Positions 17,439 through 20,172 of a stretch of 64,000 nt of DNA are shown one piece after another (position 1 is the stretch's first letter; each line of letters opens with the position of its first letter). A model generated the notes under the pieces. That model searched no databases. It saw only the letters and a program-made list of their open reading frames with translations, and was not told the origin of the DNA. Origin of the DNA: Rhizobium sp. 007 (GTDB lineage: Bacteria > Pseudomonadota > Alphaproteobacteria > Rhizobiales > Rhizobiaceae); contig NZ_CP064187.1 of assembly GCF_015353075.1 (NCBI RefSeq), positions 2,232,001 through 2,296,000 on the forward strand, read 5' to 3'. Position numbers and translations under genes: made by a program.

Positions 17439-18413
17439 ATGACTGCCCGACACACTAAAGTTCTCATCATCGGCTCCGGTCCCGCGGGCTATACGGCCGC
17501 AGTCTATGCGGCACGCGCAATGCTGAAGCCGGTGCTGATCGCCGGGATGGAGCAAGGCGGGCAGTTGATGATCACGACGGACGTCGAGAACTATCCGGGC
17601 TTTGCCGATCCGATCCAGGGCCCGTGGCTGATGGACCAGATGCTGCAGCAGGCCAAGCATGTCGGCGCAGAGATCGTCAGCGACATCGTCACCGAGGTCG
17701 AGATGAACCAGCGGCCCTTCGTAGCCCGCACCGACAGCGGCCAGGTCTGGACCGCCGATACACTGATCATCGCGACCGGCGCCAAGGCAAAATGGCTCGG
17801 CATCGAAAGCGAACAGCATTTCCAGGGCTTTGGCATTTCAGCCTGCGCCACCTGCGATGGCTTCTTCTATCGCAACAAGGACGTCATCGTCGTTGGCGGC
17901 GGCAACAGCGCCGTCGAGGAAGCCCTTTATCTTTCCAACATCGCGAAGTCGGTGACGGTCGTGCATCGCCGCGATGCGTTCCGCGCCGAAAAGATCCTGC
18001 AGGAGCGCCTCTTCTCGAAGGAGAATGTGACGGTTCTCTGGAACACCGAAGTCGCCGAAATCACCGGCACGCCGGCGAAACCGCCGATGCCGCCTTCCGT
18101 TACCGGCGCGCGCTTGCGCGATACCCGCACCGGCGCCATCAGCGACGTTTCGGTCGATGGCGTCTTCGTGGCGATCGGCCATGCGCCGGCAACCGAACTT
18201 TTCAAGGGCAAGCTCAAGCTCAAGGACAACGGCTATCTCTGGACCGCTCCGGATTCGACTGCAACCAGCATAGAGGGTATCTATGCTGCGGGTGACGTGA
18301 CGGACGATACCTTCCGGCAGGCGGTCACCGCCGCCGGCCTGGGATGCATGGCCGCCCTCGAAGCCGAGCGTTATCTCACGGGCCACATGCCCGTCGCCGT
18401 GGCCGCGGAGTAA
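17439..18413 (+). CDS. trxB: Thioredoxin-disulfide reductase
   Basis: FAD enzyme of 324 residues that reduces thioredoxin with NADPH in the cytosol. The FAD-binding motif is G-S-G-P-A-G-Y-T-A-A at about 12-21. The redox disulfide is C136-A-T-C139-D, and the NADPH motif is G-G-G-N-S-A-V-E-E-A. The C-terminal FAD segment A-A-G-D-V-T-D lies near residue 285. A GGATCCGG stretch precedes the ATG. lsrB follows 23 bp later in the same direction, as in Sinorhizobium, and the two may be cotranscribed. Confidence 0.97.
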   Translation: MTARHTKVLIIGSGPAGYTAAVYAARAMLKPVLIAGMEQGGQLMITTDVENYPGFADPIQGPWLMDQMLQQAKHVGAEIVSDIVTEVEMNQRPFVARTDSGQVWTADTLIIATGAKAKWLGIESEQHFQGFGISACATCDGFFYRNKDVIVVGGGNSAVEEALYLSNIAKSVTVVHRRDAFRAEKILQERLFSKENVTVLWNTEVAEITGTPAKPPMPPSVTGARLRDTRTGAISDVSVDGVFVAIGHAPATELFKGKLKLKDNGYLWTAPDSTATSIEGIYAAGDVTDDTFRQAVTAAGLGCMAALEAERYLTGHMPVAVAAE

Positions 18414-18436: not shown

Positions 18437-19333
18437 ATGCCATTGGATTGGGACAAGCTGCGTATTTTTCACGCGGCTGCCGAGGCCGGATCGTTCACGC
18501 ATGCGGCCGACAAGCTGCATCTCTCCCAATCCGCGATCAGCCGCCAGGTGAGCGCGCTGGAGCAGGACGTCGGCACCAAACTCTTCCACCGCCATGCCCG
18601 CGGCCTGATTCTGACGGAACAGGGCGAACTGCTCTATCGCACCGCCCATGATGTGCTGCTGAAGCTCGAGACGGTGAAGATGCAGCTCACGGAAACGACG
18701 GAAACGCCCAGCGGCAAGCTGCGGGTGACCACCACCGTCGGCCTCGGACAGGGCTGGCTGACGGACAAGATCCAGGAGTTCATGCAGCTCTATCCGGACG
18801 TCCAGATCCAGCTCATTCTCGACAACGAGGAACTGGACGTGAACATGCGTCACGCAGATTGCGCCATCCGCCTGCGCCAACCGCAGCAGTCCGATCTCAT
18901 TCAGCGCAAGCTCTTCACCGTGCATATGCACGTCTATGCCGCTCCCTCCTATATTAACCGCTACGGCGAGCCTCAGTCGGTCGAGGATCTGGACAATCAC
19001 CGCATCATCACCTTCGGCGAGCCCGCCCCCAGCTATCTGCTGGACGTAAACTGGCTGGAGATTGCCGGCCGCTCTTCGGACAACAAGCGGATTCCGCATC
19101 TGCAGATCAACAGCCAGACCTCGATCAAGCGCGCCTGCCTGCTTGGCATCGGCGTCGCCTGCATGCCGGATTACATCGTCGGACGCGATCCGGGCCTCAT
19201 CCAGCTAGCGATCAACGCCGACGTGCCCTCGTTCGACACCTATTTCTGCTATCCGGACGAAATCAAGAATGCCGCAAAGCTGAAGGCATTCCGCGATTTT
19301 ATCGTCAGCAAGGCGAGAAACTGGAACTTCTGA
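18437..19333 (+). CDS. lsrB: LysR-type regulator LsrB/VtlR
   Basis: LysR-family activator of 298 residues. The helix-turn-helix is at about residues 5-60 (D-K-L-R-I-F-H-A-A-A-E-A-G-S-F-T-H-A, then L-S-Q-S-A-I-S-R-Q-V-S-A-L-E), followed by a periplasmic-binding-like effector domain. Downstream position after trxB and upstream of tandem AbcR-type sRNAs identifies it with LsrB of Sinorhizobium and VtlR of Brucella/Agrobacterium, which are needed for host interaction. VtlR is known to activate an AbcR sRNA. The ATG at 18437 follows GGGGGG and is chosen over an upstream frame that overlaps trxB. Confidence 0.9.
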   Translation: MPLDWDKLRIFHAAAEAGSFTHAADKLHLSQSAISRQVSALEQDVGTKLFHRHARGLILTEQGELLYRTAHDVLLKLETVKMQLTETTETPSGKLRVTTTVGLGQGWLTDKIQEFMQLYPDVQIQLILDNEELDVNMRHADCAIRLRQPQQSDLIQRKLFTVHMHVYAAPSYINRYGEPQSVEDLDNHRIITFGEPAPSYLLDVNWLEIAGRSSDNKRIPHLQINSQTSIKRACLLGIGVACMPDYIVGRDPGLIQLAINADVPSFDTYFCYPDEIKNAAKLKAFRDFIVSKARNWNF

Positions 19334-19374
19334 TTCCCGTTTTTGTTCACTAAAATGCAGACCATGCAACCAAC

Positions 19375-19428
19375 GCATGACTGGCATGCACAAAAGAGGG
19401 TTGCCGTTTGCTCAATTAAACACCATAT
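19375..19428 (+). promoter_or_regulatory. Promoter region of first AbcR-type sRNA with upstream box
   Basis: GTTGCC (19400-19405) and CCATAT (19423-19428) lie 17 bp apart and match the rhizobial housekeeping promoter pattern CTTGAC-N17-CTATAT. Upstream sits GCATGACTGGCATGCA (19375-19390). An almost identical box lies at the same distance before the second sRNA, about -45 to -60 from the predicted start, where LysR activators usually bind. Confidence 0.7.
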
Positions 19429-19435
19429 CGCACTC

Positions 19436-19551
19436 AGCTGATGCACACGGTGGCTTTTCCTCCCAGTTCCACCGCATTAGCTGTTCCCCTCTGGAGGTTT
19501 TTGACCTTCACACCTTAAAGGGCCCCGAACTTTCGGCGGCCCTCTTTTTTT
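19436..19551 (+). ncRNA. AbcR-type (alpha-r15) trans-acting sRNA, first copy
   Basis: About 116-nt Hfq-type regulatory RNA. It contains the AbcR landmarks: C-C-T-C-C-C-rich anti-Shine-Dalgarno loops at 19459 and the sequence CCCCTCTGGAGG at 19486. It ends in an intrinsic terminator (AGGGCC at 19519 with GGCCCT at 19538, inner CCGA/TCGG, then seven T). AbcR RNAs repress amino-acid and sugar ABC-transporter mRNAs. A second copy follows about 100 bp later, matching the SmrC15/SmrC16 locus between lsrB and an arsR gene in Sinorhizobium. The 5' end is inferred from the promoter. Confidence 0.88.
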
Positions 19552-19588
19552 GCCCAGAATCGCTGCATCGCAACATAATTTGTGCAGC

Positions 19589-19642
19589 GCATGGCAGGCA
19601 TGCATAATAATGCATTGAAAGCTGCCCAAGAAAGCACCATAT
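19589..19642 (+). promoter_or_regulatory. Promoter region of second AbcR-type sRNA with upstream box
   Basis: ATTGAA (19614-19619) and CCATAT (19637-19642), again 17 bp apart, are preceded by GCATGGCAGGCATGCA (19589-19604). This box matches the one before the first sRNA at 14 of 16 positions. Box-to-promoter spacing is identical in the two copies. Confidence 0.7.
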
Positions 19643-19649
19643 CGCACAT

Positions 19650-19764
19650 AGCTGATGCACTTCGGTGGCTTCTCTCCCAGTGCCACCGCATTAGCTGTTC
19701 CCCTCTGGAGGTTTTTTGACCTTCACACCTTAAGGGCCCCGAGCTTTCGGTGGCCCTTTTTTTT
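19650..19764 (+). ncRNA. AbcR-type (alpha-r15) trans-acting sRNA, second copy
   Basis: Tandem copy of the preceding sRNA, about 115 nt. Shared blocks are AGCTGATGCAC, CGGTGGCTT, the CTCCCAG loop, CCACCGCATTAGCTGTTCC, CCCTCTGGAGG and the terminator, which ends in eight T at 19764. Differences fall mostly at the 5' end and in the loops, so the two RNAs may share some targets and differ in others. The numbering as AbcR1 or AbcR2 cannot be assigned from the sequence alone. Confidence 0.88.
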
Positions 19765-19878: not shown

Positions 19879-20172
19879 ATGGATAGAGATGAAGTCCTGA
19901 AAGCGCTTTCCCATCCGATGCGGGTGGAAATCCTCAATTGGCTGAAAGATCCGAAGGAGCACTTCTCCTCCCAGGAGCACCCTTTGGAAATGGGTGTCTG
20001 TGCCAGCCAGTTCGAGCGCTGCGGCCTTTCGCAATCGACCGTATCCGCTCATCTCGCAACATTGAGCCGCGCCGGCCTCGTCACGACCAGGCGCGTCGGC
20101 CAATGGGTTTTCTACAAGCGCAACGAAGAAACGATCGCTGCCTTCCTCAAGCAACTAAGCCAGGATCTGTGA
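19879..20172 (+). CDS. ArsR family winged-helix regulator
   Basis: Repressor of 97 residues with an ArsR helix-turn-helix: E-V-L-K-A-L-S-H-P-M-R-V-E-I-L-N-W-L, then G-L-S-Q-S-T-V-S-A-H-L-A-T-L and R-V-G-Q-W-V-F-Y. A Cys-containing insert (G-V-C-A-S-Q-F-E-R-C-G) lies before the recognition helix. The start at M-D-R-D-E is chosen because upstream residues look like operator DNA; no strong ribosome binding site is present. The ene-reductase gene follows in the same direction and is the obvious candidate target. Confidence 0.85.
   Translation: MDRDEVLKALSHPMRVEILNWLKDPKEHFSSQEHPLEMGVCASQFERCGLSQSTVSAHLATLSRAGLVTTRRVGQWVFYKRNEETIAAFLKQLSQDL

Follow-up and report, generated by a model that had tools for sequence, protein, structure and literature searches.

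In S. meliloti, the model for rhizobial AbcR control, AbcR1 is placed under LsrB and AbcR2 under RpoH1 (PMC8844928). The S. meliloti abcR1 promoter (PabcR1) carries the motif GCAT-N3-TG-N3-T at -61 to -49, and its DNA is gel-shifted by LsrB. Cutting this promoter to 38 bp, by which the motif region is lost, lowers activity more than 22-fold, and the full promoter without LsrB keeps only about twice the activity of the truncated one, while PabcR2 activity needs RpoH1 and has the published core CTTGAA-N16-CCTATAT (PMC8844928). Reports on the effect of lsrB on AbcR1 in S. meliloti conflict: according to PMC7486931, neither AbcR was altered in an lsrB mutant of strain 1021, contrary to PMC8844928, whose authors could not obtain an lsrB knockout in that strain. 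In A. tumefaciens, the gene order is trxB-vtlR-abcR1-abcR2-arsR and VtlR binds PabcR1 in gel shifts, with the motif GCAT-N3-TG-N3-T; AbcR2 was reported unchanged on vtlR deletion, and excess unlabelled PabcR2 did not compete for VtlR (PMC7486931). An orthologous regulator also controls an AbcR gene in Brucella (VtlR and abcR2), although there the AbcR genes lie on two chromosomes and VtlR controls just one of them (PMC5461406). In addition, the promoter of the S. meliloti sRNA NfeR1, which belongs to another sRNA family (ar14) and is also repressed by NtrC, contains an LsrB motif of the form TGCA-N6-GCAT (PMC10746234).

The locus described here lies in a window (the whole stretch of DNA that was analysed) of 64,000 nucleotides from Rhizobium sp. 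007. It shares with the S. meliloti lsrB-abcR1-abcR2 locus the gene order, the ar15-family sRNAs, the LsrB box of abcR1 at -61, two anti-Shine-Dalgarno (aSD) motifs and separate transcription units (PMC8844928, PMC3712013), and with A. tumefaciens the order from trxB to the arsR-family gene and the motif of PabcR1. S. meliloti abcR2 is reported as LsrB-independent and RpoH1-dependent (PMC8844928) and has no box in the S. meliloti locus compared here, whereas the second copy in the window is boxed; the aSD1 of this second copy is also unlike that of the first, in contrast to the S. meliloti pair. The operator is already known from relatives and, because only abcR1 is LsrB/VtlR-activated in S. 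meliloti and A. tumefaciens, the unusual part is the second box. What is new here is a predicted double operator that is near-fixed in Rhizobium together with a fixed loop difference between the two sRNAs. No published report of an LsrB box on the second AbcR gene in Rhizobium was found in a search of paper listings and text passages; an alignment of these promoters from several species is published as Fig. S1A of PMC8844928.

Taken as a whole, the explanation that we judge probable is that both boxes are LsrB operators, that both sRNAs are LsrB-driven, that the second gene is a duplicate of the abcR1 unit and that a loop change has split the targets. Each sRNA would have a promoter of its own, with the 16-mer some 46-61 bp upstream as LsrB operator. 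LsrB made from the gene just upstream would bind both boxes and bring RNA polymerase to the two promoters, taken to be weak and of sigma-70 type, and both AbcR sRNAs would thus answer to LsrB. The second gene would be a tandem duplicate of operator, core promoter and sRNA, located where Sinorhizobium and its allies have their RpoH1-type abcR2. In the main group of loci, a different first loop would since have become fixed in this gene, and one activator would thereby control two sets of target mRNAs that overlap without being identical. Sequence, spacing, conservation, distribution and the fixed loop difference are direct observations, while binding and activation by LsrB are carried over in this explanation from the relatives described above.

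The tandem abcR locus downstream of lsrB

In the sequence and open reading frames (ORFs) of the window, the order is trxB, lsrB, sRNA 1, sRNA 2 and an arsR-family gene, all on the forward strand, in agreement with the original prediction, which had placed lsrB just upstream of tandem sRNAs. The thioredoxin reductase gene trxB (17439..18413, an ORF of 324 aa) adjoins lsrB upstream, and the homologous block is annotated trxB in the S. meliloti locus (L085) and in an R. leguminosarum record (L088). The lsrB/vtlR gene (18437..19333) encodes by translation a LysR-type regulator of 298 aa, whose counterpart in L088 bears the annotation 'LysR family transcriptional regulator VtlR', and the gene 3' of the tandem (19879..20172) is an ORF for an ArsR-family regulator with annotated homologues in L085 and L088. 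The starts of both regulator genes were picked by comparison, the mechanical ORFs beginning at 18344 and 19804, respectively. The genome measures 7.6 Mb, and its lsrB is 100% identical to that of R. mongolense USDA 1844, the nearest named match; the protein shares 267 of 298 residues with its S. meliloti counterpart, with four differences within residues 1-66. In L088 (R. leguminosarum BIHB 1148 pSK03, 156193-164369), the trxB-lsrB-abcR-abcR-arsR block with both boxes stands on a record labelled as a 408-kb plasmid, and this replicon was possibly mislabelled or misassembled.

Both sRNAs are full-length matches to the ar15 family (Rfam RF02345, model positions 1-112) and score above the gathering threshold of 40, which bears out their earlier description as tandem AbcR-type sRNAs, a class also characterised by Hfq-dependent repression of ABC-transporter mRNAs. 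The first (AbcR1; 19436..19548) scores 121.1 bits with a fold z-score of -4.54, and the second (19650..19762) scores 110 bits with a z-score of -6.60. Each folds into three hairpins, of which the last is its own 3' terminator, at -43.8 kcal/mol for sRNA 1 and -50.5 kcal/mol for sRNA 2. Neither the promoters nor the terminators of the two sRNAs were listed by a plain consensus scan for sigma-70 promoters and terminators; the assignment of -35 and -10 elements therefore rests on comparison, and that of the terminators on comparison, Rfam and folding.

The two 16-mers singled out by the original prediction were both found, as GCATGACTGGCATGCA at 19375-19390 (box 1, the predicted LsrB operator of sRNA 1) and GCATGGCAGGCATGCA at 19589-19604 (box 2, that of sRNA 2), and the spacing observed around them is as regular as had been claimed. 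The block CACCATATCGCAC begins at 19421 and 19635, exactly 30 nt after either box, and the unit repeats with an exact period of 214 bp. The gap from box to -10 (CATAT) is 33 nt for both boxes, and each box begins 61 nt before the Rfam start of its sRNA and so spans -61 to -46. The activator had been placed at about -45 to -60, which was right as to the general place, with the exact span now corrected from the Rfam start. The sequences between box and -10 had also been described as diverged except for the TTG of the -35, a description that does not hold, since 15 of the 30 nt before CACC are identical between the two units. For sRNA 1 the -35 is TTGCCG (19401..19406; TTG invariant, TTGCCG in 50 of 58 main-group first copies) and the -10 is CATATC (19424..19429), while sRNA 2 has TTGAAA (19615..19620; 47 of 57 main-group second copies) and CATATC (19638..19643), both -10 elements being supported by the conservation profile. 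A half-site of the form TGCA-N6-GCAT (19365..19378), which is that of the published NfeR1 LsrB motif (PMC10746234), overlaps the upstream half of box 1, and TATGCA is kept upstream of box 1 in the main group.

Against the consensus GCAT-N3-TG-N3-T, box 1 matches on the forward strand and box 2 on the reverse strand only. The 12-base core GCATNNCNGNCATGCA has three matches in the 7.6-Mb genome, namely both boxes and one in apparent coding sequence, and none in the reversed control. A search of the window alone with three mismatches gave a borderline result (six matches against 2.6 expected, equalled by 5 of 100 shuffles), and two of the six come from reading the boxes in reverse.

Conservation and distribution of the boxes

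The region 3' of lsrB was compared in 80 named loci, five further loci and 60 other loci of the family, the last comprising 43 listed places outside the window's genus with LsrB identity of at least 73% and 17 hand-picked from below that value. Among the 65 loci L085-L149, 58 have a called copy, two (L133, L134) gave no match and five (L135, L141, L142, L143, L146) fail the tail filter; L090 and L041 may be one genome. Box scores, with 12 as the maximum, refer to the best position per upstream region, with ties settled towards the expected place.

The alignment over Rhizobiaceae that had been proposed as a check was run on 53 distinct first-copy promoters with a 33-nt gap from the loci L085 onwards, where the box was found to carry 1.44 bits per column, against 0.36 in the 26 columns upstream and 0.28 in the nine columns between box and -35, with 2.0 for the TTG and 1.85 for the -10. 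In the main group, box 2 is about as conserved as box 1 (1.82 and 1.78 bits per column). For example, the first-copy box of the S. meliloti locus is GCATGGCTGTCATGCA, with the same 33-nt gap as in the window. In dinucleotide-shuffled upstream regions, a score of at least 10 arose anywhere in 2.1% of 4940 trials and one of at least 11 in 0.14%. The reading of the 16-mer as an LsrB operator, as originally proposed, is thus well supported from sequence and by analogy, because this site agrees with the published consensus in sequence and in its place within the promoter, and because it has stayed conserved between drifting flanks. The accompanying premise that LsrB/VtlR regulators activate AbcR sRNAs in relatives agrees with the published text for abcR1 and fails for abcR2 in S. 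meliloti and A. tumefaciens. A chance occurrence of the box was also considered and is ruled out by the strict pattern (below), the spacing and the conservation.

The distribution observed for box 1 is wider than that for box 2. Within the main group, all first copies (58/58) and all second copies (57/57; L042 is single-copy) have a box scoring at least 10 of 12 at a gap of 33 or 34 nt. Tropici-type loci are boxed on 10/10 first and 10/10 second copies (the latter with a gap of 33 in 10/10), and three allied Rhizobium loci on 3/3 of each, as are L041, L059 and L071. In Allorhizobium, A. vitis and Neorhizobium, first copies are boxed in 6/6 and second copies in 0/6. Similarly, across the loci from L085 onwards with a called copy, the first copy is boxed in 58/58 (score 9-12 of 12, gap 33 or 34), while only four of the 30 loci with at least two copies have a boxed second copy (L088, which is the Rhizobium record, L090, L111 and L127), and no box was found on the second copy in S. 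meliloti (L085), Sinorhizobium sp. (L087, L089) or Shinella (L086). One locus, L092 (genome G158), has four tandem ar15 copies 3' of lsrB, with a box on copies 1, 3 and 4 and none on copy 2. As boxed later copies occur in L090, L111, L127, L092, L041, L059 and L071, tandem multiplication of the boxed unit probably occurred more than once. A third match in L047 was discarded as an artefact of the search word.

At the level of whole genomes, 139 of the 148 from the window's genus contain two or more matches of a strict box-spacing-CATA pattern on the same strand (with one reversed-control match in each of four). Among other genera this holds for two of 195 genomes, one of which has its matches on two separate contigs (one control match). 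The strict pattern undercounts the other genera, since it misses degenerate boxes, and as few as 68 of 199 family genomes have any match. Nine of the 148 genus genomes, counted by eye, have fewer than two same-strand matches. G030, G037, G057, G258, G264 and G292 carry two tandem copies with recognisable boxes and deviations in box or -10, G261 has one abcR1-type copy and one copy with a variant box, G044 (1070 contigs) has a single divergent copy, and G003 (82% complete) gave no match in the strict-pattern search or among the ar15 matches listed. Among the matches listed, which cover 63 genomes, a tandem pair about 200-245 bp apart can be read by eye in each, and some genus genomes have an additional same-strand match outside the tandem.

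Origin and promoter of the second copy

A tree of 64 sRNA sequences placed 13 main-group second copies in a supported set (95/88). On the same 64 rows, from which seven of the 21 box-less second copies, mostly long branches, had been left out, the AU test rejected a clade of the 13 Rhizobium and 14 box-less second copies (p = 0.011), and did so again when five tropici-type or allied second copies were added (p = 3.7e-5), while a single clade of all Rhizobium copies was not rejected (p = 0.25); these sRNAs are short and give few columns, and the groups tested were chosen once a first tree, of 103 rows and poor resolution, had been seen. By eye, the spacer of copy 2 (CTGCMCAA type) resembles the abcR1 promoters of other genera and not PabcR2. 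Because the AU test rejects a grouping with the 14 box-less second copies, we infer that the Rhizobium copy 2 is likeliest a tandem duplicate of the abcR1 unit. Its reading as a simple orthologue of the RpoH1-type AbcR2 is rejected by the same test, a rejection that is blurred by gene conversion; moreover, an RpoH1-type AbcR2 is marked by a promoter without an LsrB motif, and copy 2 in the window has box 2. Terminators are, by eye, alike between tandem copies within a lineage and unlike between lineages (L083, L085, L127 and others). This apparent sharing suggests gene conversion, which could give the appearance of duplication.

The promoter of copy 2 could alternatively be composite, with the second gene being an AbcR2 that combines an RpoH1-type core (TTGAAA-N16-CCATAT) with an LsrB box and so answers to redox as well as heat or starvation. 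Its hexamers and their spacing are the same as in S. meliloti PabcR2 (copy 2 of L085), and the -35 begins with TTGAA in 52 of 57 main-group second copies and in none of the 58 first copies. The -35 of copy 2, TTGAAA in 47/57, would suit such a promoter. However, TTGAA also occurs in boxed first-copy promoters, including all ten of the tropici type and those of L090, L095, L096, L109, L111, L115 and L122, and both the abcR1-like spacer and the AU test on the sRNAs speak against descent from a box-less AbcR2, so that we regard a composite promoter as on balance unlikely. Much the same doubt attaches to its extended form, a tentative scheme in which an LsrB operator over an RpoH1-type core would let redox and heat or starvation converge on one sRNA with a fixed seed, LsrB also reaching plasmid-borne AbcR copies and some NfeR-type sRNAs.

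The preferred reading, a duplicated abcR1 unit under LsrB, takes both boxes to be working operators. It is also conceivable, if quite unlikely in our view, that LsrB binds both and activates strongly through box 1 only, with box 2 weak or titrating because of its reversed centre and sRNA 2 driven mainly by other means. The box centre is TG, as in the published consensus, in 56 of 58 main-group first copies read forward, and AG in 51 of 57 second copies, where the consensus lies on the reverse strand; since box 2 matches it on that strand only, its affinity may differ. However, 14 of the 28 single-copy loci have an AG-centred box before their one called copy, so that AG boxes are probably functional, and the conservation of box 2 equals that of box 1 in the main group. 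In the weakest alternative, some other regulator would bind the 16-mer, or the 16-mer would be a structural element of the promoter, and lsrB would be nearby only incidentally. This alternative draws on the one paper in which AbcR expression did not depend on lsrB in S. meliloti 1021 (PMC7486931), but is rendered highly improbable by reporter assays, mutants and gel shifts for the homologous promoter of S. meliloti, by gel shifts in A. tumefaciens and by the same motif class before the LsrB-driven NfeR1 and before two ar14 genes of the window genome.

Target loops and the wider LsrB circuit

The first loops of the two sRNAs differ. That of sRNA 1 (19455..19464) is UUUUCCUCCC and contains the aSD1 motif UUCCUCCC, as seen from sequence, fold and loop comparison, while in that of sRNA 2 (19669..19678), CUUCUCUCCC, aSD1 is altered to UCUCUCCC; both sRNAs have aSD2 (UUCCCCUC) and CUCCCA. 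For comparison, the S. meliloti AbcR motifs are given as aSD1 CUCCUCCC and aSD2 UUCCCCUC (PMC8844928), and those of Brucella as M1 CUCCCA and M2 GUUCCC (PMC5461406). The difference observed is fixed in the main group, where the loop contains CCTCCC in 58/58 first copies and CTCTCCC in 57/57 second copies (0/58 first copies), and CCTCCC is retained in 13/13 tropici-type and allied second copies. The rewriting in copy 2 is confined to the 5' half of aSD1, since CUCCCA and the second motif are retained, and the two copies may have most of their targets in common. Our modest expectation, judging from these motifs, is that the two target sets overlap but are shifted, which would make 'one signal, two outputs' a plausible, inferred consequence of the duplication.

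If the LsrB-driven duplicate is the correct reading, the wiring described for S. meliloti would not be transferable to Rhizobium (R. leguminosarum, R. etli, R. tropici and relatives), where the pair would be united under one activator and split by target specificity instead. The locus would then show, in compact and directly testable form, how regulation is rewired once an sRNA gene has been duplicated, and natural variants would be at hand in the tropici type (unchanged loop), the main group (changed loop) and Sinorhizobium (separate inputs).

LsrB may also act elsewhere in this genome. A genome search with GCATNNCTGNNNTGCA gave seven matches (two in the reversed control), which are abcR1, two sites upstream of ar14 genes and four within open reading frames of 144-366 aa, and a longer genome-wide pattern matched abcR1 alone; no new protein-gene target is claimed from these LsrB pattern searches. 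Five ar14 (NfeR-type) genes score above the cut-off, and two of them lie directly 3' of GCATNNCTGNNNTGCA matches. The three others are weaker, as L174 has a box of score 9 at a comparable place, L175 one of score 10 with odd place and shape, and L177 no box. Boxes of the form GCATNNCTGCNNTGC stand upstream of the ar14 genes L174, L176 and L178. The boxes before ar14 genes fit the published control of NfeR1 by LsrB (PMC10746234), and this suggests that LsrB would also drive several ar14 copies in this genome.

Copies of ar15 outside the tandem were also seen. In another genome of the genus, a weak ar15 match (L200, G292:C56:3704-3813; 46.9 bits) has TTGAAT-N16-CCATAT upstream and could be a relocated RpoH-type AbcR2. 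In the window genome, a divergent ar15-like match (L004, G000:C2:458033-458118; 59.5 bits) is shortened on its 5' side and lacks an evident box, and CCCTATAT may be its -10. Among 20 non-tandem ar15 copies, hand-picked in other genus genomes among the matches listed, five have no strict match and 15 carry a variant box, GCATNN[CG]TGNNNTGCA, 61-63 nt before the sRNA. The window genome likewise has a third ar15 copy on another contig (L002, G000:C5:407560-407669; 118.2 bits), with the variant box GCATAGGTGCATTGCA 33 nt before CATAG.
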